A stretch of 42,778 bases of DNA, taken from positions 1-42,778 of the forward strand of contig CAJFNT010000010.1 in NCBI GenBank assembly GCA_904395315.1. Reading direction: 5' to 3'. Under the pieces are notes generated by a model. The model was not told the DNA's origin. It was given only the letters and a program-made list of their open reading frames with translations, and did not search any database. The position numbers were made by a program, and so were the translations under genes. Position 1 is the stretch's first letter. The number at the start of each line of letters is the position of its first letter. The DNA comes from an uncultured Clostridia bacterium (GTDB lineage Bacteria; Bacillota; Clostridia; UBA1381). Below, piece by piece: positions 3,001 through 30,678 of this stretch.

Positions 3001-4593
3001 TGAATATGTATATTGGTCACAATGTCCCGCTTCATTATATATTTCTGTAGGCACAACAAACACATAATAATCTGAGCCGCTGAAATAACTGCTGACGGGT
3101 CCTCTGTACGTTTCCATTTGATAATCGTCATATGTAAAATGAGCACATTCTAAAGTGGATCCGTTGCTGATTTTTTCTATGTATGATAGTACAGGACAAG
3201 TTCTGCTCCAGCTTATTGATGATTCACCGTATGCGAGAGTAATCAGAGTTTTATAGTATCTTATAATATTACCGCCTGGCAATATTATTTCGGTTCGGTC
3301 ATCATAGTATGCAACAATTATTTCCTTTCCTTCGGATTCTGCTTTTGTCAGATCTCCATTTGTATATGTGTAATTAATTATATTTCCGTATTTGTCTACA
3401 CTCTTATACAAAAGTCCGGCATTATCAAGATATTCCTTACTGCCATCAATATATGTAATAAGTATTTCACCGCCGCCGTTTGATTCTACTTCTACATCAT
3501 TATAATAATTATTTTTTACAGAGTTGCCGGAATACTTAATACTGCGACCGTCTTTTAGGTATATTATTCTTGATTCTCTTCGGGTAAGATTGAACCTCCA
3601 GCCTACTCCGAGAGCGGATTGCTTCAAAGAGGTTAAATTAGATATTACGCCGCCGTCCACATCTTCATATACATATCCTGCCCCCTTGGCCTCGGAAACA
3701 TCATATACAAGATCGAGAGACATGTATCCATTGCTCAGCGGAACTGATATATCATTGCGTACATATCTGAGATTGCCGCTTTTATCGTCTATATAGATGT
3801 TTGAACCTTCATTTTTATAATACTTAGGCGCGGTTATAGCCTGTGCCAGAACATCTTCTCTGTCGTCAGAAGCAGCTGCTATGGAATTAGGTCCTGAAAT
3901 ATCTTCCTCTTCTGGGAGAATATCATTGTCAGCATAGATATCCTGAACTTCACCGTATATATCGGACGAATCGTCAATGTCACGTACCGTTCCTCGGAAA
4001 ATGTTTTCGTCTATAGCTGTAAGCGGGTCGGGATCTTCGCACCGGCCTTCCGATACATTTCTCCGATACCGCATAAATGCGTTCATGACAGCTGTGGGCG
4101 AGTTATCCGCAAGCAATGCCTTTAACGCGTCTTTTTCATCGTTCGAAACGCGGTCATCGCGGAGGATACATATGAGCAGCTTGTATATCTCGTTGGATTC
4201 GGAATATGCCGTAATAACGTTTATCTCGTTTTCCGAAAATTCAGCGCTAAGTATCTCTTGCGCGGTTTCCGCTGGCTCAGAAACGTTTTGAGCATAATAT
4301 GTATTGAGTTTGTCGATCTCATTTTGGTTTCCTGTGATTATCTGAAAATAGGTGATGTAATAGTCTTCAAAAGTTTTTTCATCCGTGCCGTATATCTCTT
4401 CATCGGAAAAATATACATCCTCTGTATCCGAAATCAGCTTGTCCGGAACTTCCTCGGGATAAACGACGCCGGATCCTGCATCCTGTATGCTGCCGGAAAA
4501 ACTGAGAGCATCAGGTGAAACATCGGCGGCAAGCGCGCATATGTCAAAGCACATCAGCGCGGATAAAATGATAGAAATGACTTTCTTTTTCAT
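1..4593 (-). CDS. Secreted YD-repeat (Rhs-family) protein, C-terminus beyond window
   Basis: This open frame starts at an ATG (4593) preceded by a GGGGAGG ribosome site and runs without a stop to base 1, giving 1531 codons of an unfinished gene. It begins with a classical signal peptide (MKKK, hydrophobic core, ALAA cleavage region). About 250 residues of acidic, non-repetitive sequence follow. The rest is dense YD repeats (YTYDDMGN, YEYDANN, YKYDPAGN and similar), which fold into the beta-shell of Rhs/teneurin-like proteins. The last visible residues (GEFYDNESGMIYL) match the start of the conserved Rhs core, normally followed by RARYYDP and then a variable, often toxic, C-terminal tip. That tip and any immunity gene are outside the window. 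A Gram-positive, Sec-secreted form would be exported or wall-associated. The family call is firm; the role is inferred. Confidence 0.93.
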   Translation of the reverse strand, partial: MKKKVISIILSALMCFDICALAADVSPDALSFSGSIQDAGSGVVYPEEVPDKLISDTEDVYFSDEEIYGTDEKTFEDYYITYFQIITGNQNEIDKLNTYYAQNVSEPAETAQEILSAEFSENEINVITAYSESNEIYKLLICILRDDRVSNDEKDALKALLADNSPTAVMNAFMRYRRNVSEGRCEDPDPLTAIDENIFRGTVRDIDDSSDIYGEVQDIYADNDILPEEEDISGPNSIAAASDDREDVLAQAITAPKYYKNEGSNIYIDDKSGNLRYVRNDISVPLSNGYMSLDLVYDVSEAKGAGYVYEDVDGGVISNLTSLKQSALGVGWRFNLTRRESRIIYLKDGRSIKYSGNSVKNNYYNDVEVESNGGGEILITYIDGSKEYLDNAGLLYKSVDKYGNIINYTYTNGDLTKAESEGKEIIVAYYDDRTEIILPGGNIIRYYKTLITLAYGESSISWSRTCPVLSYIEKISNGSTLECAHFTYDDYQMETYRGPVSSYFSGSDYYVFVVPTEIYNEAGHCDQYTYSPEIEKYDHTSTRTWTLRVTGKYKNDDAYSSGDYLLPSETSRTENTKYTETFENNKLVVSEFTPTSKSVSTYKKEDNTNILLKKEVTSFSRNHEHCPDSKEVKTYNSSGNYITYKEDYTYNEKDQLTNIKTYIDNSLYEDTTYQYTNWYLTLTETERNNECVYIYHTERNNYGDITAEYAEDPDTGNILSKTTYSYDSKHRQISKAIRTGNNMIEYLDDYRYTNDFCLPYEKYVMYGDDIAFSETYTYDPDNGNILSVKDGKENITYYEYDARGNITKETLPDGTEININYGGYASDISYSANPMTVEYENGYCLQYWFNSYGDIVTVSEKNPTENKFSDLIQYSRDTFNNIEMITDAEKNYTDFSYDVYNRQTKAIYPIVNETSSEPIRTYYYDVFFDGSQKCSAVITVDQDNKASISYSDLRGRNYKNAVIKNFSSIGADTDWENITSLPTNAQLVITETNTYDDLDRLIKTVDGENRPTEYTYDINGNTTSQVSGSGSEEYGAKFTYDAAGNITETDQAGQITYSEYDTMGRIVKTTDPMGFTEEYKYDPAGNLTEYKDKNNVYTYNTYDSMNRLTKTAKGSSQITYTYDDMGNMITAANETGTITYEYNDDGTLASKEYPDGKKISYTSYDANKNLLSMTDCFGNITNYTYNSRGLMSSVTEKYSGSAAQKTTSYSYNDNGSIKGSSGPNGIETSYEYDYAGRVSYMENTSASSSVYTNHTYTYDNSGNVIKRIDNIVGQGSTTTDYSYDTVNRLSREWAPGVHRSDYEYDTHGNITSSTYDSDAVYEYDANNRIIESDVNNAYSETSVGSVLSDWHTDYSYNANGDLISSSKHSNHPDYPEMYQSSEETYTYNDFGQLIAYSDSYGYSATYTYYADGLRASKTMSYDICPDVTTTYYYDGGNVINESREGQPYAINVMGADGYISRTQSGTTSYYMKNAHGDIVYAVTESGAKSFSAIYNAWGEIVDGYDPGSRFSSNPICYAGEFYDNESGMIYL

Positions 4594-8126: not shown

Positions 8127-10078
8127 TTTATGATCCCCTTTCTGAACGCGTCAACGAGCGCTCTTAAATCATTTATTCTTCTTTGGATCTGTTTGCCTGT
8201 GTCTGTGTCCTCAACGAGCAGGCGGGCCGGAGCCATGTCTATTATGTCGAGAGACGAGTACATATCGTCATCTGTCGCTACTGTGTTTTTGACCGAGTCG
8301 AATGAGTCGTGGGCAGAAAGCAGCAGACCATGCGAGTTGAATATAAGCGTGTAGCCCGCTATGCCTGTCTGTTTTTGGTATGCTCTCGAAAGCCCGCCGT
8401 CTATGACCAAAAGCTTGCCGTCGGCTTTTACCGGGCTTTCTCCTTTTTTGATCTTTACCGGCACGTGACCGTTTATTATATGCGAGAATTTGTCCGGATC
8501 CACGCCGAACTCTTTTAAGATCTTTGAGCAGACAGATCTCTTTTCTATGTATTTGTAGTAAGGGTCTTTTATCTCTTTCCATGCCTCTTCATCGGCTATG
8601 AAATAACGTTCGAACGACGTCATCTTATTTTTGCCGTAGACAGGTGAGCCGACTCCGCACCAAAGATACCATAGAAAATCCTGACCGTACATAGTTTCGG
8701 GCTGACCCGCCTTGCCGAAGTAACCGACTCTTGCTATCTGCTCGGCGCGGTCGAGCAATTTCTTGCCGCTTACACGCTCGTGGTCTATCTCGTATTCGGC
8801 AAATTCTCCGTCCTCGGTCATCGGTATGCATCCGTGATAGAGCAAATTGTTGTTATAGACGAGATACATGCTGCCCTTAGCGTATATGAACCTTATGTGC
8901 TTTTGAAGTTTTTCAGAGTGCATGAACGATAGCTTGAGCGAATGCATAAGCTCCGCTTCCTCGTCAGTGAGTTTGTACGGATCTTTCGGATCTATAGTCG
9001 GGAAATTGGTGTCAAGCAGATCATATATCTTTCCATCGATGTTTATAGTTCCTTTTTCGTAATCTATCTTATCGAGCATAAGATGGTTCTCCATCATAAA
9101 CTCGGGATGATTCAGGATGATCTGTCCCTCAAGCTTGAAGCGTATGATAGATATAGCCTTATGGAGCTTTGCCCAGAATTCGACATCGTGCTGCGATATG
9201 TCCACGGAATTGGGGTTCCTCGGTATGAAACATGTGCATGGATCGTTGGTATATGTTTCAAGAGCGAAAACAGTCAACGGACGCAGGCTGATCCCGTAGC
9301 CGTCCTCGATACAGTCAAAATTGCAGTATTTGGTCGATATCGATATTACGTTGGCTATGCACGCGAGAGAGCCTGCCGCGGCTCCCATCCATTCGACGTC
9401 ATGGTTCCCCCATTGTATATCAACGCTGTGATAGTTTAGAAGTCTGTCCAGGATGATATCGGCGCGGGGGCCTCTGTCGAATATGTCCCCGATTATATGC
9501 AGACGGCCTATCGCAAGGTTCTGTATAAGATGCGCGATCTCCACGATGAACGCATCGGACTGCCCGAGATCCACTATTGAGCGGATACATTGGCTGTAAT
9601 AGCCTTCCTTGTCGGACCCGAAATCCGTGTCGGCGTGAAGCAGCTCGTCTATTATGTCGCCGAAGGTCCTCGGCAGCATCTCTCTTATATGCGCGCGCGT
9701 ATACTTTGACGCGACGAGACGGCACACATCGATGAGACGGTACAGCGTGATCTTGTACCAGTCATCTATATTGTCGACTTTCATCTTGATCATGTCAAGC
9801 TTCTGCTCAGGATAGTATATTAGCGTGGACAGTGTGTCGCGCTCTTTTTCCGACAGTGTGCGCGCGAATATAGTGTCTATCTTATCCTTTATTACGCCGG
9901 ACGCGTTTCGGAGTATATGCAGGAACGACTCGTATTCGCCGTGGATATCACTCATGAAATGCTCTGTGAGCTTCGGCAGCTTTTTGTGAGATTCAAGCGA
10001 TATTATCTTTGCGCATGCCGACTGTATTGTCGGATACTGTTCGGCTAAAAGCTGCAGATATTCGGTATTGTATTCCAT
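8123..10078 (-). CDS. fbp: Fructose-1,6-bisphosphatase class III
   Basis: The enzyme dephosphorylates fructose 1,6-bisphosphate in gluconeogenesis. The protein (651 residues from the chosen start) belongs to the Firmicutes-type class III family, with calcineurin-like metal motifs GDIFDRGPRAD and WGNHDVEWMGA and a later INGHVPVK. Length agrees with Bacillus Fbp (about 670). The frame is open 10 codons further up to an ATG at 10108, but the ribosome site AAGGGGGA lies inside that extension, 9-10 bp before the ATG at 10078, which I therefore prefer. Gluconeogenic capacity fits growth on sugar acids that enter at pyruvate and triose phosphate. The 4-bp overlap with the esterase gene is unusual for a housekeeping enzyme. 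Confidence 0.93.
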   Translation of the reverse strand: MEYNTEYLQLLAEQYPTIQSACAKIISLESHKKLPKLTEHFMSDIHGEYESFLHILRNASGVIKDKIDTIFARTLSEKERDTLSTLIYYPEQKLDMIKMKVDNIDDWYKITLYRLIDVCRLVASKYTRAHIREMLPRTFGDIIDELLHADTDFGSDKEGYYSQCIRSIVDLGQSDAFIVEIAHLIQNLAIGRLHIIGDIFDRGPRADIILDRLLNYHSVDIQWGNHDVEWMGAAAGSLACIANVISISTKYCNFDCIEDGYGISLRPLTVFALETYTNDPCTCFIPRNPNSVDISQHDVEFWAKLHKAISIIRFKLEGQIILNHPEFMMENHLMLDKIDYEKGTINIDGKIYDLLDTNFPTIDPKDPYKLTDEEAELMHSLKLSFMHSEKLQKHIRFIYAKGSMYLVYNNNLLYHGCIPMTEDGEFAEYEIDHERVSGKKLLDRAEQIARVGYFGKAGQPETMYGQDFLWYLWCGVGSPVYGKNKMTSFERYFIADEEAWKEIKDPYYKYIEKRSVCSKILKEFGVDPDKFSHIINGHVPVKIKKGESPVKADGKLLVIDGGLSRAYQKQTGIAGYTLIFNSHGLLLSAHDSFDSVKNTVATDDDMYSSLDIIDMAPARLLVEDTDTGKQIQRRINDLRALVDAFRKGIIK

Positions 10079-10141
10079 ATATAAAAGATCCCCCTTCCCT
10101 TGTGACATGTCTGCCGTATTCGGCGGCAGCGCATATCTATC

Positions 10142-10172
10142 ATTATATTGTAATTATACTACAAATAAGCAA
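10142..10172 (-). promoter_or_regulatory. Possible fbp promoter
   Basis: A TATAAT hexamer (10142-10147) lies about 64 bp upstream of the fbp ATG. The best -35 candidates (TTGCTT at 19 bp, GCTTAT at 17 bp) are weak matches. A second TATAAT-like element lies just upstream. Confidence 0.4.
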
Positions 10173-10210
10173 AAAAATAAAGCAGATATTAAAATTAATC
10201 TGCTTTATTT
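10169..10210 (-). terminator. Intrinsic terminator of the envelope glycopolymer operon
   Basis: After the DUF4330 stop, the minus strand has a perfect 13-bp stem (AAATAAAGCAGAT / ATCTGCTTTATTT) with a 10-nt loop, followed by a run of T residues. It separates the polymer operon from fbp. Confidence 0.85.
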
Positions 10211-10227
10211 ACAAATTGACCGTTAAA

Positions 10228-10719
10228 TTATTGCTCTGATAATTTTTCAACGCTTGTTATTGTTCCTGATGTATGGACGTATTTTGAGAATATCTCTGTT
10301 GTGCGTCCGACCGAAAGCTCGTTGGAGTCGGCGGTTATATAACTGTTGTCGGATTCCTTTCCGCGTGTTCTTATGGTCACATATGCGGTGTAACGCTCCG
10401 GCTGCTCCGCGAACACGATATGTCCGTCAGCGGTCGTGGACTGATATTCTGTGGGTTCAACAGTGACATCTGTTATCTCTCCAAGATCGAGAGTTGAGTT
10501 TTTGTCCGTGACCTTGCCCTTTTTCTCAAGAGCTGAGATGGTGAAATCTCTTACTGATTCTACTTTTACGATATATTCGAATTCCTCGTCAGATTTTACG
10601 GCGGTAGTCACACTGCTGCCGTAACGCACGGCTATGCCGACAACGACAGCCGCAAGAAGGATTATGACCAGGAGGTCGATAATATTGAATTTGCCCTTTA
10701 TATTTCCGTTCTTATCCAT
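10228..10719 (-). CDS. DUF4330 family membrane protein (second copy)
   Basis: This 163-residue protein starts with a short basic cytosolic stretch containing GKFNIIDLLVI, the DUF4330 hallmark. One transmembrane helix (about residues 13-31) follows, then an extracytoplasmic domain rich in beta-type segments. It is the last gene of the six-gene polymer operon, 25 bp after a paralogue. DUF4330 proteins have no established function. Their position beside glycosyltransferase, flippase and polymerase genes suggests an accessory role in polymer assembly or export at the membrane, which is inference. Confidence 0.8.
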   Translation of the reverse strand: MDKNGNIKGKFNIIDLLVIILLAAVVVGIAVRYGSSVTTAVKSDEEFEYIVKVESVRDFTISALEKKGKVTDKNSTLDLGEITDVTVEPTEYQSTTADGHIVFAEQPERYTAYVTIRTRGKESDNSYITADSNELSVGRTTEIFSKYVHTSGTITSVEKLSEQ

Positions 10720-10743
10720 TATTATTTTCTTCCTTTCCGCTGA

Positions 10744-22937: not shown

Positions 22938-22976
22938 ATCAATAAGCGGTTAATCATGGAAAGGAGAGGACAAAAC

Positions 22977-23225
22977 ATGAAATCTACAGGAATCGTGAGA
23001 AAAGTCGACGAATTAGGAAGAATCGTTATACCGAAGGAACTCAGAAGAAAATTCGGTATTGATACGAAGGACGGCTTGGAAATATATGTTGAGGAAGATA
23101 AGATTATATTGAAGAAATATGAGCCTTCATGTATTTTCTGCCAGAATTCAGATGATATCTTTGAATTCCACGGCAAAAACATTTGTCCCGAGTGCGCAAA
23201 GGCTATAGGCGCTCGTGCAGAATAA
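22977..23225 (+). CDS. abrB: AbrB/SpoVT-type transition-state regulator with C-terminal zinc-finger-like tail
   Basis: An 82-residue DNA-binding protein. Residues 1-50 form the swapped-hairpin AbrB domain (MKSTGIVRKVDELGRIVIPKELRRKFGI, then KDGLEIYVEEDKIILKKYEP). The C-terminal 30 residues carry CIFC and CPEC pairs, a zinc-ribbon-like module common in clostridial homologues and different from the Bacillus AbrB multimerisation tail. The ATG at 22977 follows AAAGGAGAGG; an upstream in-frame ATG (22956) lies before the ribosome site. Such proteins repress post-exponential functions such as sporulation and biofilm genes. The gene is monocistronic, with its own promoter and terminator. Confidence 0.9.
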   Translation: MKSTGIVRKVDELGRIVIPKELRRKFGIDTKDGLEIYVEEDKIILKKYEPSCIFCQNSDDIFEFHGKNICPECAKAIGARAE

Positions 23226-23240
23226 TTCAAAAGGGATATA

Positions 23241-23269
23241 AAAAAACAGCCGGATACGGCTGTTTTTTT
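23241..23269. terminator. Bidirectional terminator between abrB-like and U32 genes
   Basis: AAAAAACAGCCG, a GATA loop and CGGCTGTTTTTTT give A- and T-runs on both sides of a short GC stem. The end overlaps the stop codon of the convergent U32 gene. Confidence 0.9.
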
Positions 23270-24494
23270 ATAGTCTTTTTTTTCTAAGCATTGCGCCCTC
23301 GCAAACGGGCATCGGCGCATCAATTGTGACTATCTGTTCGGCGTGAGGCGCCGAGGTTATGTGCTCGCCCTTTTCATCACGCATATTTTTCACGGAAGTT
23401 GTCAAAAACGGTCTCATAGGCTGCATTATCTCGATCTCGTCTCCTTCGAAGAACCTGTTGCGCTGGGTGACAGTCATTCTGCCTGATAGTGCATCGTATG
23501 CCTTTACTATGCCTATGAGCTCATAATCGCGTATATATGAGCTGGATTCATATACCTGCGCGTCCGCCCCGGGTCTTCCGAAATAGAATCCGGTCGTGTA
23601 AGGCCTGTGGCTGACTTTGCATAGTTCCTCGAGCTCGGAAGGATCAAATACGTAATTTTCCGGATCGCTGAGATATCTGTCGATCTCGCGGCGATATGCT
23701 CCCACCACTGTGGCCACGTAAAAAGAAGTCTTGACTCTGCCTTCTATTTTGAGGCTGGTTATGCCGCTGTTTATAAGTTCCGGTATATGCTCTATAGTGC
23801 ACAGATCTTTTGAGTTAAAAATGAAAGTGCCGCGGTTGTTTTCTTCGACATCGAAATATTCTCCGGGGCGTTTTTCCTCGACAAGAGAGTAATTCCACCG
23901 ACACGGATGCGCGCAGGCGCCGGCGTTCGAGTCTCTTCCGGTCATATAGTTTGAGAGCAGGCACCGTCCTGAGTATGAGATACACATCGCTCCGTGTATG
24001 AACGCCTCAAGTTCAAGATCAGACGGGAGCTTGTCTCGAAACTCTGATATTTCTTTAAAAGACATCTCTCTGCCGAGAACGACGCGCTTTGCTCCGAGCT
24101 TGTGCCACATAAGGGCCGAGCGGTAGTTTGTGTTGTTTGCCTGAGTGCTCACATGTATCGGAAGCTCCGGTGCTGTTGTATGTACTATATCGAACATGCC
24201 GAGATCCGATACGAGTATCCCGTCAAAACCGAGCGGACGTATCTCTTTGATATACGACTCGAAATCAGAAAGATCGTCGTTGTGCGGGATGATATTCGCG
24301 GTCAGGTATACGCGTTTGCCTCTTTCGTGGGCATATGCAAGCCCCTGACGCATATCCTCGATACTGAAATTTTCTGCCGCAACGCGCAGTGAAAAGGCGT
24401 CTCCGCCTATATACACCGCGTCGGCGCCGTAATCAATGGCTGTTTTTAGTTTTTCAAGGCTTCCTCCCGGAGCCAGCAATTCAGGTCTGTTCAT
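23268..24494 (-). CDS. U32 family protein, TrhP-like tRNA uridine hydroxylation protein
   Basis: The 408-residue protein starts RPELLAPGGSLEKLKTAIDYGADAVYIGG, the standard U32 opening. It contains the family signature FIHGAMCISYSGRCLLSNYMTGRDSNAGACAHPCRW (residues about 165-200), whose cysteines are conserved. Originally called collagenase-like peptidases, proteins of this size and pattern (Bacillus YrrO, E. coli YegQ) are now assigned to 5-hydroxyuridine formation in tRNA (TrhP). The C-terminal barrel-like region is present, so it appears full length. It follows the low-complexity protein gene by 40 bp and is probably co-transcribed with it. The tRNA role is inferred from the family. Confidence 0.85.
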   Translation of the reverse strand: MNRPELLAPGGSLEKLKTAIDYGADAVYIGGDAFSLRVAAENFSIEDMRQGLAYAHERGKRVYLTANIIPHNDDLSDFESYIKEIRPLGFDGILVSDLGMFDIVHTTAPELPIHVSTQANNTNYRSALMWHKLGAKRVVLGREMSFKEISEFRDKLPSDLELEAFIHGAMCISYSGRCLLSNYMTGRDSNAGACAHPCRWNYSLVEEKRPGEYFDVEENNRGTFIFNSKDLCTIEHIPELINSGITSLKIEGRVKTSFYVATVVGAYRREIDRYLSDPENYVFDPSELEELCKVSHRPYTTGFYFGRPGADAQVYESSSYIRDYELIGIVKAYDALSGRMTVTQRNRFFEGDEIEIMQPMRPFLTTSVKNMRDEKGEHITSAPHAEQIVTIDAPMPVCEGAMLRKKRL

Positions 24495-24533: not shown

Positions 24534-25118
24534 CTATATGAGGTTTATGCCGTACCCGAAAACGCGTATGAAACGTTCCGGCAGTTCAAACGGCGCCGGA
24601 AGAAGTTCGGATCTCCCGACCGCGGAGCCTATGGGATAACTTCCGCCGTATGAACCGGAATACGAGTAAGAAAGCGCGAAACTGTTTGAAAATGAGCCTC
24701 CGCGCCCGTGTTCGAATTCAAATTCGTATTCGTAGTAATGGCCTCCGCTGCCGCTCCCGAACGATCCGCTTGAAAAGTATCCGCTTCCGAATGAGCTGAT
24801 CAGGTAGTATCCGCTTCCCCGGGATCCGCTCCCGCCGGAGGCGGATAGAGCGGTAACTGACATAACGGTCATAGGCTCGTCAGAATCTATGGCGTACCGA
24901 GGATGAAAAACGGGCTCTATACCGTCAAATATCATGCCTTCCGCGGCAGCCGCTTCGCGCGAGCACAGCACATCGGCTTTTATGGGTCCAAGCCTTGAGA
25001 AAGAGGTGTCAGCACAGACCGGCAGCGTGTAGATCCCCGCGCAGAGGATTATATTTTTTTCTCCCTCTGTCAATGCCTTTTCGAGATCCTTTTGCCCGTA
25101 GACGATCTTGCCGTCCAT
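24534..25118 (-). CDS. Uncharacterised protein with Gly/Ser/Tyr/Phe low-complexity domain
   Basis: I do not recognise a named family. The protein (194 residues from ATG 25118, ribosome site GGAAGGAG) has an ordered N-terminal part of about 90 residues (MDGKIVYGQKDLEKALTEG, IILCAGIYTLPVCADT, IFDGIEPVFHPRYAID). About 75 residues of G/S/Y/F-rich sequence follow (SGYYLISSFGSGYFSSGS, YYEYEFEFEHGRGGSFSN, SYSYSGSYGGSYPIGS), then a short ordered tail (ELPERFIRVFGYGINLI). There is no signal peptide or membrane helix. It has its own promoter and precedes the U32 gene. The [G/S]Y[G/S] pattern resembles low-complexity domains that self-associate. A GTG at 25127 is in frame but lies within the ribosome site. 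Confidence 0.7.
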   Translation of the reverse strand: MDGKIVYGQKDLEKALTEGEKNIILCAGIYTLPVCADTSFSRLGPIKADVLCSREAAAAEGMIFDGIEPVFHPRYAIDSDEPMTVMSVTALSASGGSGSRGSGYYLISSFGSGYFSSGSFGSGSGGHYYEYEFEFEHGRGGSFSNSFALSYSYSGSYGGSYPIGSAVGRSELLPAPFELPERFIRVFGYGINLI

Positions 25119-25152
25119 ATAAATCACTCCTTCCCGCGGCGCGTAAGATCAT

Positions 25153-25229: not shown

Positions 25230-25258
25230 ATTGTAACATATAAAATAGAAAAAGACAA
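25230..25258 (-). promoter_or_regulatory. Promoter of the low-complexity protein and U32 genes
   Basis: On the minus strand TTGTCT (25253-25258), a 17-bp spacer and TACAAT (25230-25235). The untranslated leader would be about 105 nt. Confidence 0.65.
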
Positions 25259-25354: not shown

Positions 25355-26536
25355 TCAAAGCCCGAAAATATCTTTGCTTCGCTCAACTATCCCGTTTACG
25401 TATGCGAGGATTATTCCGTAGTTGCTTATCGGTATGTTTTTCCCTCGGCATATATCTATCCTGTTTTTTATTGCTCGTGAGTTGATCATGCAGCCGCCGC
25501 AGTGTATCACCATATCGTAACCGGAAATATCGTCCGGGAAGTCGTAACCGACACAGTAATCGAATTTAAGATCCTTGCCGGTCTTTTTTCTGAGAAGAGC
25601 CGGTATCTTTACTCTGCCTATATCCTCATGGGACACGTTGTGAGTGCATGCTTCCGCCATCAGTATCGTGCTTCCGTCCCTGAGGTCTTTCACAGCTTCC
25701 GCGCCGCGGATAAATTCTCTGAGATCGCCTTTCATGCCTGCCATCATTATTGAAAACGAGGTCAGCTTGATATTCTCGGGGACGATCTTTGAGACCGTGC
25801 CGAATACCTGAGAGTCGGTGACCACAAGATCCACAGACGGCAGCTCGGCGAGCGTGTCGGCAAGCTCCGTGTCACGCACGCATACAGCTTTCATGCCGTG
25901 ATCGAGGCAGTCGCGCAGAAACTGCACCTGCGGCAGTATCAGCCTGCCTTTGGGCGCTTCCGAGTCTATGGGGATGACGAGAACTATTGTTGAGCCGGAA
26001 GGCAGCAGCCCGCCTATCATAGTCTGTTCTTCCGAGCCAAGCTCCGACAATATATCCGAGAGACGTTTTTTCAACGCTTCTATCGAATCGTCATCATAGA
26101 CCGAGACGAATGCGGCGTCTGGGTATTTTGAAGATAGCTCGTCCTTGCACAGATCGGATTTGGTGAAAACGAGCAGATGCTTTATATGTTTTTTTTCGAA
26201 CATCCGCTTTGAAGCCTCGTAGTCGGTCTCGTTGAAGTGTGTGCTGTCGGCCGCGTACAGGGCAAAGTCGGTGCGCTCCAATATTTTTTCGGTCTTTTTG
26301 ATCCTTTCGGCTCCCATTTCGGTCGTATCGCCGAGCCCCGCGGTATCCGTAAGCGCGATCGGCCCGTAGGGGATGAGTTCCATGGCTTTGGTGACGGGAT
26401 CGGTCGTGGTGCCGTGCGTGTCTGCCACTATCATCATATCCTGACCTATGAGTTTATTGAAAAGCGCTGATTTACCGGCGTTTGTGTTACCGAAAATAGA
26501 CACGTGTGTCCTTGATGAAAGAGGTGTTTTTTCCAT
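25355..26536 (-). CDS. hydF: [FeFe]-hydrogenase maturation GTPase HydF
   Basis: HydF is the scaffold that carries the two-iron subcluster and delivers it to the hydrogenase HydA. The 393-residue protein has an N-terminal GTPase domain (GNTNAGKS at 16-23, DTHGTTTDP, DTAGLGD at 64-70, TKSD) and a C-terminal FeS domain with the diagnostic CxH-x45-HCxxC arrangement (Cys297, His299, His345, Cys346, Cys349). The length is as expected. The ATG has TAGGAGTGA upstream. HydE, HydG and HydA are not in the window, so this is a detached maturase gene. It implies hydrogen-evolving fermentation. Confidence 0.95.
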   Translation of the reverse strand: MEKTPLSSRTHVSIFGNTNAGKSALFNKLIGQDMMIVADTHGTTTDPVTKAMELIPYGPIALTDTAGLGDTTEMGAERIKKTEKILERTDFALYAADSTHFNETDYEASKRMFEKKHIKHLLVFTKSDLCKDELSSKYPDAAFVSVYDDDSIEALKKRLSDILSELGSEEQTMIGGLLPSGSTIVLVIPIDSEAPKGRLILPQVQFLRDCLDHGMKAVCVRDTELADTLAELPSVDLVVTDSQVFGTVSKIVPENIKLTSFSIMMAGMKGDLREFIRGAEAVKDLRDGSTILMAEACTHNVSHEDIGRVKIPALLRKKTGKDLKFDYCVGYDFPDDISGYDMVIHCGGCMINSRAIKNRIDICRGKNIPISNYGIILAYVNGIVERSKDIFGL

Positions 26537-26685: not shown

Positions 26686-27678
26686 TTATTGTCCTATTTT
26701 GAGCGGTGTCCTGTCTACGATTATATTCTGACCATCGTATATTATGTCCTGATTGTCATTGTTGTACATCAGGTACGATTCAAAGCCTCTCAAGGTATCG
26801 TAGTTGTTTCCGAATGCTATCTCGCCGCTCTCACCGTTGACGGATCTGAATGTTGCCTTTAAAACATGTCCGTCTGTTGTTCTTGCGGTGTCGCCGTATA
26901 TAGTTACGTACAATGCTTTTGTTCCAGTCATATAATCGGGGTTCTCCGCGTATACTGTTGCCTCTAACGGCTCGTTGTTATTATTCAGCAGCGTTCCCGA
27001 AACAAACTCAAACTTTGATTTGTCATAGTTGAAAGTAACTGTGATACCGCTCAGGAATGAGTTTGCGGGTGTGTTTGAAACATCCACATAGACGTCGAAT
27101 TCCTCTCCGGCGCTTATCGTTTCCGCATCCGTGGAAAGTGACATGGTCAGCATCTCGCTTTCTGCCGGCTTTGGAGTGGGCTGCGCGCCCTCAAGAAGGA
27201 TAGGTTCTCCGGATGTTATGTCCACTCTGTACGCGTCCTGATCCCATTCCACGCCGCAGTCGAATGCCTCGGATATCGCTCTCAGCGGTATCATTGTCCT
27301 GTCATTCATTATCTGCGCGGGCACCTCGAGGGTATATTCCGTCTTTTCGATCTCCATGATCGTTTTGTATGTATTTATCTGCATTATGTCGCTGTCGATG
27401 GTAAGTGTAACGACGCGCACACCCGTGTCGGAAGTGACCTTTACCGTACGAGCGTCGCTGTCCCATTCGACATCATATCCGAGACTTTCAAAAACGCCTC
27501 TCGCGGGAACAAGCGTTACGCCGTCGATTATCTTTGCGTTCTGATCCTGAAACATTATGAGACTGTCATTTACGTATACATCCGGTTCCGCGTTTGCTTT
27601 ATCCGCTGCGTTGACAGCGGCAGCCGGGACCGTCATAAGAGAAACGGCTGTAAAGAAGCCAATCAACTGTTTTTTCAT
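26686..27678 (-). CDS. Secreted copper-amine-oxidase-N (stalk) plus cohesin-like protein
   Basis: The 330-residue protein has a signal peptide (MKKQLIGFFTAVSLMTVPAAAVNAA). Residues about 33-160 show the copper-amine-oxidase-N ('stalk') domain with two repeats: VNDSLIMFQDQNAKIIDGVTLVPARGVFESLGYDVEWDSDARTV and NDRTMIPLRAISEAFDCGVEWDQD. A PTPKP linker follows, then a cohesin-type beta domain (about 172-320: SAGEEFDVYVDVSNTPANSFLSGITVTFNYDKSKFEFVSG and a late RGFESYLMYNN). Cohesins bind dockerins, so it may present a dockerin-bearing partner at the surface; no dockerin is visible in the window. It has its own promoter and terminator and lies downstream of the large secreted protein. Surface anchoring is inferred. 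Confidence 0.85.
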   Translation of the reverse strand: MKKQLIGFFTAVSLMTVPAAAVNAADKANAEPDVYVNDSLIMFQDQNAKIIDGVTLVPARGVFESLGYDVEWDSDARTVKVTSDTGVRVVTLTIDSDIMQINTYKTIMEIEKTEYTLEVPAQIMNDRTMIPLRAISEAFDCGVEWDQDAYRVDITSGEPILLEGAQPTPKPAESEMLTMSLSTDAETISAGEEFDVYVDVSNTPANSFLSGITVTFNYDKSKFEFVSGTLLNNNNEPLEATVYAENPDYMTGTKALYVTIYGDTARTTDGHVLKATFRSVNGESGEIAFGNNYDTLRGFESYLMYNNDNQDIIYDGQNIIVDRTPLKIGQ

Positions 27679-28059: not shown

Positions 28060-30678
28060 TTACTGTTCCGCGCTGCCGGCGTTATTGTATGAGTTGTCCT
28101 GGCTGTCCTCATATTCATTTTCTCTGTTTGAATGGATATTGTCCGTATCGTCTTCGCGTATATCCACAGAGTAAGTGGCGTTATCGTCAACGATCCTGAG
28201 TTCCGCGGAAGCGTTTGGGGCGTAGATGTTGTCTATAACTATGCCGTAATCTATATCACCGCCGCCGGAAAATATGGTTGTTTTTGGAAATGAATCGAGC
28301 AGGAGCAGCATCGCGCTGCCGCTGTCTTCGAAGCTTTCGACCTTGTATATGTTCCCTTTATTTACATCTACACTCTCAGAATCTTTAACAACAGCATTTC
28401 CAAGATTGAAATTCTTTTCTATATTGGCATTTCCACGGCTGAATGTGCCGCCGGTGCTGCCGTCATCTGCTTTAAGATAAAGAGCCGTATTTTCACCTTC
28501 GGGCTCCGGAATATTTATTACCCATAGAAAGTCATTTGATGGGAGCGCTGTGCCGGATTCGGTTTTTATACTTGCAACGAAGCCTGTGGATATGGTATTG
28601 CCGTAATTGATATCAGAATCCTCGCTGCTTCCGTAGCCTTGATTTTGTACAATTCCATTGGGAGTTTTTATGTGAGAGCTATCGAATGTTGTATCATCAG
28701 CATTAGTATCCTCACTTTCTTTCACGTATGAAAGATACGGTCCGCTGACCTCGCCGATAGGCAGGACTTCTATTGAGTAAGCATTACCGACAGGATAGAA
28801 GTAGTCGCTCCATATATCCAGCGCGGTGTATTGAGCATGATCGAAATTATACTTTAAGGCCCCGTTTGTGCTGTCTGTTCCTGTCGACGCGTTTACCTCG
28901 TCGCCTATTTGGGCGGGAGAGCCGTTATATGTGCCGTATGTTCCGTCTGTGTTGTCATTATTGTAGTATACGGTGTGCTTATCGCGGCTCCCGAACCAGT
29001 TGTTATTGTAGCTTATATTATTCATAAGCTCTATTTTTATACCGTTTGGCATACCCTCAACATCTATGAGAGGAAGATGCATTGAACCGTAAACGAAGTA
29101 TTCGCGTACTATGCTTGTGTATGTGCCGGGCGGAACTATATTGTTGTATGTGTCGCGTCCGTCCCATATAACTGTATACACAGCCTTGCCGTTTTCGGTC
29201 GTCTTATGACCGATAAGTGAAAGTATGTTAGCAGATTCGTTAGCTGTGGGATCAGTTGCCGTTTCCCATTCTCCGCTGCTGTTAAGTACCGGATTTAGGT
29301 TGCTGTCGAGCTTATATTTGCTGAAATCGAGTATAACAGCAAAATCATCCGGAAGATTTTCTTGGGAATCCAGCTCAAGTCTGAATGTTCCGCCGTAGCT
29401 TTCAGTACCGCCACCGAGACTGTTATCAGAGCCTGGGTTATTTGTGTTGGGCCCGTTGCCTGTATATGTAAGAGCTCTTTCTACTGCAATGCTGGAATCG
29501 CTCTCTATATCATTAGAATCTGTCAGTCTGTTTTTGCCGGTATATGCTTCAAGCGCTTCGCTTGATGGTACGTTAAAGAACAGCTTGTTATTTTTGTCCA
29601 CATTCGGATCGGTCGGGGTATAGTTTGCATATACCGTGCTCCCGTTTACCTTTGGAGGCAGTCCGACATTTGCCGTGTTTCCTTCACGACTGAAGAACGA
29701 GTGCATCAGCGGCTGCAGGTTGTTATAGTCCGGACTGTCGGTTTCTATGCTGTTTGTGTATGAGTTGCCGGGATCTATCAGAAAACCGCGCCGGTTCGAA
29801 TAGAATACAACACCGTAAGGCTGCATACCGTTGGTGTCAACCTTATATTGGAACCCATCGTCTGTCAAGACGTAGAAGGACGAGTAGATATTTGCTTCGT
29901 TATCACCTGTATTGAGGAACAGTACATCGTTCCATACGCGTCCGGTCTGCGGCTCGTTGTTATTATTATAAACGCTTATATCGAAAGCGGCTATAGTGCC
30001 GTTTCCTTCTTCAAGATTATTTTCTGTGCCAAGAAGTGACGCTTGGCTTACGTCTTCACTGCTGTAGTTTTTTGAGAGGAATCTGAACGCGTATGTGCCT
30101 GTCGTCGGGGCAGTGAAGCTGAGAGGTTTATAGCCGCCTGAATCACTTCCGTCAACGTTTGGTCCGGCAGTTTCCTGTGCAGTATTTGCAATATGTCCTT
30201 TGCCGTTGCCATCAATGCTGAACAGATATACAGTATTAGGATCGTCTAAGTTGGTATTAGGATCGATAACAGATACAGTTGTGGAATCGGGACTGTTTGG
30301 CATCCCGTCCGTGTCGGGGATCATTACCGCGACTCCGATTCCTTTCTCCGTATTGACATAGTCAGTGAAGCTTGCAGTTACTTCGTCCGGATCATCGGAG
30401 AATACCGCTTTTACAGAGGATTCGTCCTCAGCGTAGCAGCTTGAGCCAAAATATATGGTCTCTCCCTTTTGGGCATACACGTAAACTATATTTTTTCGGT
30501 GCATGCCGAGGTTTGTAGCGCTGTTCCATTCGAGGTACGGGCGGTATCCTTTCTTTTCTGCCGTGCTTATAAGATCTTTGCTTCCCTCGGCGGAGGCTGT
30601 CAGACCAAGACCGAGAAATATCACGGCAGATGCCATAACGGCAAAAAATGCCGTGTACTTTTTGCGTTTCATTGACAC
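28060..30678 (-). CDS. Large secreted surface protein, unrecognised family
   Basis: A protein of about 870 residues with a signal peptide (KRKKYTAFFAVMASAVIFLGLGLTASAEG). It is acidic and rich in Asn, Asp, Ser, Thr and Gly, with predicted beta structure throughout. Recognisable segments include an N-terminal KKGYRPYLEWNSATNLGM, the middle FTAPTTGTYAFRFLSKN (like a pre-peptidase/adhesin beta module), and DGRDTYNNIVPPGTYTSIVREYFVYG. No transmembrane anchor, LPxTG, SLH or dockerin is visible, and it ends in an Asn/Glu-rich tail. Start is either GTG 30678 (5 bp after AAGGAG) or ATG 30672. A strong promoter and a structured leader precede it. Probable exported adhesin or envelope component; no function can be assigned. 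Confidence 0.8.
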   Translation of the reverse strand: MSMKRKKYTAFFAVMASAVIFLGLGLTASAEGSKDLISTAEKKGYRPYLEWNSATNLGMHRKNIVYVYAQKGETIYFGSSCYAEDESSVKAVFSDDPDEVTASFTDYVNTEKGIGVAVMIPDTDGMPNSPDSTTVSVIDPNTNLDDPNTVYLFSIDGNGKGHIANTAQETAGPNVDGSDSGGYKPLSFTAPTTGTYAFRFLSKNYSSEDVSQASLLGTENNLEEGNGTIAAFDISVYNNNNEPQTGRVWNDVLFLNTGDNEANIYSSFYVLTDDGFQYKVDTNGMQPYGVVFYSNRRGFLIDPGNSYTNSIETDSPDYNNLQPLMHSFFSREGNTANVGLPPKVNGSTVYANYTPTDPNVDKNNKLFFNVPSSEALEAYTGKNRLTDSNDIESDSSIAVERALTYTGNGPNTNNPGSDNSLGGGTESYGGTFRLELDSQENLPDDFAVILDFSKYKLDSNLNPVLNSSGEWETATDPTANESANILSLIGHKTTENGKAVYTVIWDGRDTYNNIVPPGTYTSIVREYFVYGSMHLPLIDVEGMPNGIKIELMNNISYNNNWFGSRDKHTVYYNNDNTDGTYGTYNGSPAQIGDEVNASTGTDSTNGALKYNFDHAQYTALDIWSDYFYPVGNAYSIEVLPIGEVSGPYLSYVKESEDTNADDTTFDSSHIKTPNGIVQNQGYGSSEDSDINYGNTISTGFVASIKTESGTALPSNDFLWVINIPEPEGENTALYLKADDGSTGGTFSRGNANIEKNFNLGNAVVKDSESVDVNKGNIYKVESFEDSGSAMLLLLDSFPKTTIFSGGGDIDYGIVIDNIYAPNASAELRIVDDNATYSVDIREDDTDNIHSNRENEYEDSQDNSYNNAGSAEQ

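Follow-up and report, generated by a model that had tools for sequence, protein, structure and literature searches.

A C-Terminal GYGxxLI Tail on a Low-Complexity Protein of Clostridia and Its Pairing With the DUF6734 Family

The window studied here, a stretch of 42,778 nucleotides from an uncultured Clostridia bacterium, encodes a 194-residue protein whose middle part is of low complexity. The most constant part of this protein family is the C-terminal GYG[ILVM][NDHE]LI-COOH, which terminates proteins having different N-terminal parts and linkers and is present or absent together with a protein of the DUF6734 family. From these sequence comparisons, we consider it probable that a DUF6734 enzyme and the 194-residue protein make up a two-component system, in which the latter acts as substrate or as carrier/adaptor. 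The tailed protein would be cytosolic, and its swappable N-terminal module would probably set its location or its binding target. The low-complexity middle, aromatic or not, would be a flexible spacer. DUF6734 would bind the tail VxGYG[I/L][N/D/H/E]LI-COOH and probably modify it, the invariant tyrosine being the likeliest residue. The enzyme would be supplied from another contig in the window's organism and by the next gene in most other genera. Such an enzyme-substrate pair looks so far undescribed. In gut clostridia, a nine-residue C-terminal tag predicts the presence of DUF6734 and would point to its substrate, so that the function of this domain family becomes directly testable. What began as an odd low-complexity protein thereby yields a clear hypothesis on an enzyme family so far unstudied.

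The Gene and Its Neighborhood

The gene occupies positions 24534-25118 of the minus strand, with its ATG at 25118. The original prediction had located the open reading frame correctly and left the strand unstated; the plus strand of the same positions is full of stop codons. An AAGGAG ribosome-binding site (25127-25132, minus strand), read from the sequence, lies 8 nucleotides before the ATG. Because the GTG at 25127 overlaps this site, it is a less likely start codon. Further upstream, a promoter-like site, TTGTCT-17-TACAAT with an extended TG (25230-25258, minus strand), was recognized as a consensus match only, and five promoter-like sites were found in the region of the gene where 2.0 are expected in shuffled sequences. 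The ribosome site is a good one, as announced. Inspection of the protein sequence by eye revealed no apparent signal peptide or membrane helix, in agreement with the cytosolic location proposed.

An orthologue (76% amino acid identity) belongs to Candidatus Ornithomonoglobus merdipullorum, the sole named relative found, whose genus name stems from chicken-gut metagenome work. Compared with this orthologue, each of the three segments (N-domain, low-complexity part, tail) has a pS of 0.70-0.88, close to saturation, and a pN of 0.12-0.15; the dN/dS ratio is about 0.09 for the N-domain and 0.05 for the tail. Thus, purifying selection acts on all three segments, the low-complexity one included, which excludes a coding accident. 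No credible match to the 194-residue protein was obtained in Pfam, NCBIfam, or PHROGs, and an AlphaFold prediction made from two sequences had a pLDDT of 27.

In the window, the gene stands between hydF (25355-26536, minus strand), which encodes the [FeFe]-hydrogenase maturation GTPase, and a gene of the peptidase U32 family (TrhP-like; 23268-24494, minus strand). The gap to the U32 gene is 39 nucleotides and no terminator-like site was found in it, so that the co-expression initially expected for these two genes is plausible in the window's genus. Even there, other neighbors occur in place of the hydF and U32 genes. Outside this genus, neither hydF nor the U32 gene adjoins the tail gene, the usual neighbors being a BrkB-type membrane protein and DUF6734, and a general co-function with U32 was rejected. 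Other genes of this region include one for a secreted-looking protein with copper-amine-oxidase-N and cohesin-like domains (26686-27678, just upstream of hydF), one beside it for an 872-residue protein with an export-signal-like start (28060-30678) and, near the U32 gene, one for an 89-residue AbrB/SpoVT-like transcription regulator with a cysteine-containing C-terminal end (22956-23225).

The C-Terminal Tail and Its Association With DUF6734

Aligned homologues show three zones: a conserved N-domain, a middle part conserved in composition only and a GYG[ILVM][NDHE]LI end. In the 194-residue protein, the tail is VFGYGINLI-COOH (residues 186-194; 24537-24563, minus strand). Among 50 distinct proteins read from their loci and differing in N-terminal part and linker, GYG and the final isoleucine are invariant (50/50). 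The fourth residue from the end is I, L, V, or M, the third is N, D, H, or E, and the second is L (once I); the ninth-last residue is V in 40 of these proteins. The parts preceding the tail vary widely. Three genomes of the window's genus (G011, G012, G015) encode forms of 57-69 residues devoid of the N-domain but carrying YEYEYEYEF and VLGYGINLI. Genomes of family f54 combine another N-terminal part with a GSGSGSGS linker and FGYGLELI or a near variant, and the tail protein of G348 has a helical N-domain followed by a Ser/Phe-rich linker.

Co-occurrence was surveyed with one genome per species, many of them incomplete metagenome assemblies. In the 70 genomes of the bacterial family, the exact tail pattern followed by a stop codon is found in 41 and DUF6734 in 42. 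Both are present in 39 genomes, neither in 26, and only one in 5 (Fisher p = 1.1e-13), while in the class sample outside the family 7 genomes have both and 365 neither (p = 1.5e-12); these p-values overstate the evidence because genomes are not independent samples. A reversed tail pattern, used as a control, gave 0 matches. Outside the family, two genomes have DUF6734 with a variant tail only, and the lone tail-only match (G360) was rejected as a 15-residue frame. Where DUF6734 is present and the exact pattern missing, a variant can stand directly upstream, as GYGLNLI in G027, GYGLELI in G208 and GYGLNII in G381. Finally, a tail gene without detected DUF6734 occurs in G003 and G060, and DUF6734 without a tail gene in G043 and G013. 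These four genomes are incomplete, and their discordance may thus reflect assembly gaps. After its initial detection within the family, the pairing was recovered in four further families, so that the later cases serve partly as a test. This recurrence in other families, with different N-terminal parts, is a stronger argument than the p-values.

Gene order points in the same direction. Most of the family's other genera have the succession BrkB-type membrane protein, tail protein, 280-residue DUF6734 protein. DUF6734 directly follows the tail gene at no fewer than 14 mapped loci of the family, and likewise in families f54, f59, f62, and f43. The tail stop codon and the DUF6734 start often overlap by 4 nucleotides or are separated by no more than a few tens of bases. 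The two genes are unlinked in the window's genus, DUF6734 being encoded in the window's genome at positions 9910-10743 of another contig (G000:C102:9910-10743).

The DUF6734 Family

All 16 diverse members that were aligned match the Pfam model of DUF6734 (PF20508; best E-value 1.6e-15), and the copy of the window's genome scores 36.8 bits against a Pfam cut-off of 27. Residues D105, D107, N158, Q199, H230, W232, and K235 are invariant in 16 of 16 members. D105 and D107 form a DTD-type motif, and the residue preceding Q199 is mostly E, replaced by D in viral copies. The resulting order of motifs (DxD, N, [D/E]Q, HxWxxK), matched by eye, is one that we take to resemble GT-A/GT8 enzymes such as glycogenin. 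Using hhalign, the DxD, N, and EQ motifs of DUF6734 and GT8 come in register over 92 columns, with a score no better than that of shuffled profiles. No signal was obtained against GT8 or GT32, in a comparison without power since the positive control, GT8 against GT32 (two GT-A families), failed as well. Sequence and profile searches of the PDB with DUF6734 gave no match, and no glycosyltransferase family appears among the weak Pfam matches collected over all members. AlphaFold predictions for two sequences from a viral contig had a pLDDT of 34. DUF6734 is mentioned in no paper of the literature searched. A tentative and rather speculative extension of the two-component reading is that DUF6734 might be a glycosyltransferase adding a sugar to the invariant tyrosine of the tail. 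The two proteins might then form a split, glycogenin-like priming pair, in which the acceptor, equipped with a low-complexity spacer and an exchangeable targeting domain, could be glycan-priming.

DUF6734 is also found in Bacteroidota, where it is about 23-26% identical to the clostridial-type protein and has extra domains; the adjoining peptides are devoid of a GYGxxLI end. On a plasmid of Hymenobacter sp. BRD128, a 64-residue GG-leader peptide directly precedes DUF6734, in a cluster containing a VKOR-type gene. This peptide is TIGR04149-like, in a match (E-value 2e-4) that scores below the cut-off. On a plasmid of Emticicia oligotrophica, DUF6734 is grouped with a lantibiotic dehydratase, VKOR, a small Cys-rich peptide, and TlpA. 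This association of DUF6734 with small ribosomal peptides, in a phylum other than that of the window, is an independent clue to what the enzyme may be. In these RiPP-like clusters of Bacteroidota plasmids (L187:4101-7554 and L200:1-9741), the extra domains are C-terminal. Searches of viral contigs returned a single contig with DUF6734 (IMGVR_UViG_3300042922_001482; L186:4001-5766), in which two tandem DUF6734 genes follow tail-fibre-like genes. A decayed, partial copy lies upstream (about 3780-3960), and no GYGxxLI partner was seen nearby.

Interchangeable N-Terminal Modules

The N-terminal domain of the 194-residue protein (about residues 1-80; 24879-25118, minus strand) reads IVYGQKDLEKAL..G...I.LCAGIYTLP......F.RLGP and is supported by profile matches; it could be an adaptor-like module. 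The consensus of the aligned homologues is IVFsQ.ELd.Ai..G...I.LCdn.F.lP......Y.aIG.v. By sequence search, homologues of the 194-residue protein were found in 28 of 199 related genomes, all within the same bacterial family. A profile of the N-domain (first 75-90 residues) matches in 36 of the 70 genomes of this family and gave essentially no matches outside it in the class-wide sample of 391 genomes. One match, in G263, contains an internal stop. A profile search of the PDB with the N-domain gave no match.

The N-domain is also found inside larger proteins, with E-values of 7e-11 to 4e-6 and, in pairwise comparison, 2e-8. A helical N-module is shared with such proteins too, a relation missed by plain BLAST that gives z values of 11-16 against shuffled sequences. 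The larger proteins are frames of 237-557 residues located beside a WYL-like regulator (L063:6114-9042, L065:6615-8213, L067:2065-2775). Devoid of a Pfam name, they carry the helical module, YFLDGRLQTWLEDRYYEDEAEAV..IFGVE, followed by the N-domain of the 194-residue protein. Tail proteins also exist that begin with either of these two modules alone. An adaptor role for the N-modules is supported by their presence in these larger proteins as well, beside the WYL-type regulator.

This modularity, together with the position of the tail, would also fit a role devoid of chemistry, in which the tail acts as a peptide for docking or anchoring, the tailed protein carrying its binding partner, DUF6734, to different places by means of the N-domain. 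Docking peptides are commonly placed at the exact C-terminus, as the tail is, and the N-modules are interchangeable, two of them being present in the larger proteins described above. However, the invariant residues of DUF6734 (DxD, N, Q, H, K) look catalytic, and its neighbors in Bacteroidota are RiPP enzymes and precursor peptides. We therefore regard docking without chemistry as possible, if on the unlikely side, and favor an enzyme acting on the tailed protein.

The Low-Complexity Linker

The linker of the 194-residue protein (residues 93-165; 24624-24842, minus strand) contains 21 S, 19 G, 10 Y, and 7 F in 73 residues (78% G/S/Y/F). The Gly/Ser/Tyr/Phe-rich domain originally described is thus real, and its SGYFSSGS, SYSYSGSYGG, and YEYEFEFE blocks are all present. 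The last of these (residues 129-136; 24711-24734, minus strand) recurs in many homologues, often as YEYEYEF, including the 57-69 residue mini-forms. The middle part of most family homologues has 59-76% G/S/T/Y/F and usually 12-31% aromatic residues, with a variable sequence and length; the anticipated conservation of composition rather than of sequence holds for most of them. Aromatic residues are mostly spaced by 4 positions (273 pairs, against 38 at 3 and 69 at 5). Across tail proteins, linkers range from about 10 to over 250 residues, and consist of long S/T-S-Y repeats, of pure GSGSGS, or of almost nothing. A homologue from the same genus (G010/L009) has a short linker with 3% aromatics, six tail-bearing partners of family f54 have non-aromatic GSGSGSGS linkers, and the partner in G021, 62 residues in total, has almost no linker. 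All these proteins retain the C-terminal GYGxxLI, and their genomes encode DUF6734. At the other extreme, a 390-residue homologue frame (L066:1919-3088) has a very long Gly/Ser/Tyr/Phe/Trp region, evidence that linkers of more than 200 residues are possible. In G008, a genome of the same genus, the tail protein is found at two contig ends (G008:C95:115-138 and G008:C118:4-27; L172), probably because the assembly broke at the repetitive linker.

The composition of the linker raises the possibility, which we consider doubtful, that DUF6734 modifies the linker itself, for instance with many O-linked groups on its Ser, Thr, and Tyr residues, the tail being only a recognition handle. Most members do have Ser/Thr/Tyr-rich linkers, and those of family f54 are still serine-rich; however, the 62-residue G021 partner and the short G010 form offer few acceptor residues outside the tail. 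A condensate scaffold, in which aromatic stickers in a Gly/Ser spacer would self-associate while the N-domain and the tail recruit clients including DUF6734, appears more improbable. In favor of it, composition is retained while sequence drifts in most homologues, the YEYEYEF patch survives in the mini-forms, and aromatics have the predominant spacing of 4 noted above. On the other hand, linker length varies over the whole range given above, and the G010, f54, and G021 proteins bear the tail with a non-aromatic or nearly absent linker. Condensates may form, but this is not the defining property, given that some tail-bearing relatives have no aromatics or no linker. The FUS-like reading first put forward is accordingly right about the aromatic/Gly-Ser composition and weakened as a statement of function, because homologues lacking the low-complexity region, named at the outset as evidence against it, exist. 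A last reading takes the protein for a structural one, secreted or of the spore coat, with an ordered, tyrosine-rich repeat. Repeats rich in Tyr and Gly do typify some structural proteins, but with no sign of a link to spores or a coat, no signal peptide seen, no coat-like family match, and an enzyme-like protein rather than a coat gene as constant partner, this reading is very improbable.

Comparison With Known Systems

The substrate or carrier role favored here can be compared with several known arrangements. GlyGly-CTERM/rhombosortase, PEP-CTERM/exosortase, and LPXTG/sortase combine a C-terminal tag with a dedicated enzyme (PMC3237569, PMC1569441). As in these systems, a short C-terminal homology is carried by otherwise unrelated proteins, and its presence or absence follows that of one enzyme family (39 genomes with both, 26 with neither, and 5 discordant of 70, the class sample being similar). 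CTERM-type tags are built of a motif, a membrane helix, and a basic cluster (PMC3237569), an architecture that the VxGYGxxLI-COOH tail does not have. Indeed, unlike CTERM and LPXTG tags, which are borne by exported proteins, often many per genome, the tail consists of 7-9 residues without helix, basic cluster, or signal peptide, occurs on one protein per genome, and has a soluble-looking partner, DUF6734.

As in RiPP precursor/enzyme pairs, a small gene in most lineages directly precedes that of a putative modifying enzyme, and DUF6734 itself occurs in such clusters in Hymenobacter and Emticicia. Unlike in RiPPs, the constant element of the clostridial pair is C-terminal and the N-terminus can be a folded domain. 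Moreover, neither a leader-like N-terminus nor a conserved peptidase or exporter neighbor, as a leader/core system with cleavage and export would have, was found at the clostridial loci.

The linker resembles the prion-like domains of the FUS family in its G/S spacers and Y/F residues. It differs from them in the predominant spacing of 4 between aromatics, in the YEYEFEFE patch, in its aromatic-free relatives, and in its conserved flanking parts. Most homologues retain its Y/F-rich G/S character; several relatives that bear the tail have lost it or carry GSGSGS instead.

Lastly, the motif order of DUF6734 (DxD, N, [D/E]Q, H...K) and the invariant tyrosine of the candidate acceptor recall glycogenin and the GT8/GT-A tyrosine glucosyltransferases, a GT8 resemblance confined to motif order. 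Unlike in glycogenin, acceptor and enzyme are separate proteins. According to a review (PMC8116748), prokaryotes have yielded no glycogenin homologue. If a sugar were indeed transferred to the tyrosine, the tail and DUF6734 would make up a tag system that is soluble and cytosolic, in contrast to the known sorting tags at C-termini, which are membrane-bound, and would be a bacterial counterpart, in logic, to glycogenin priming.
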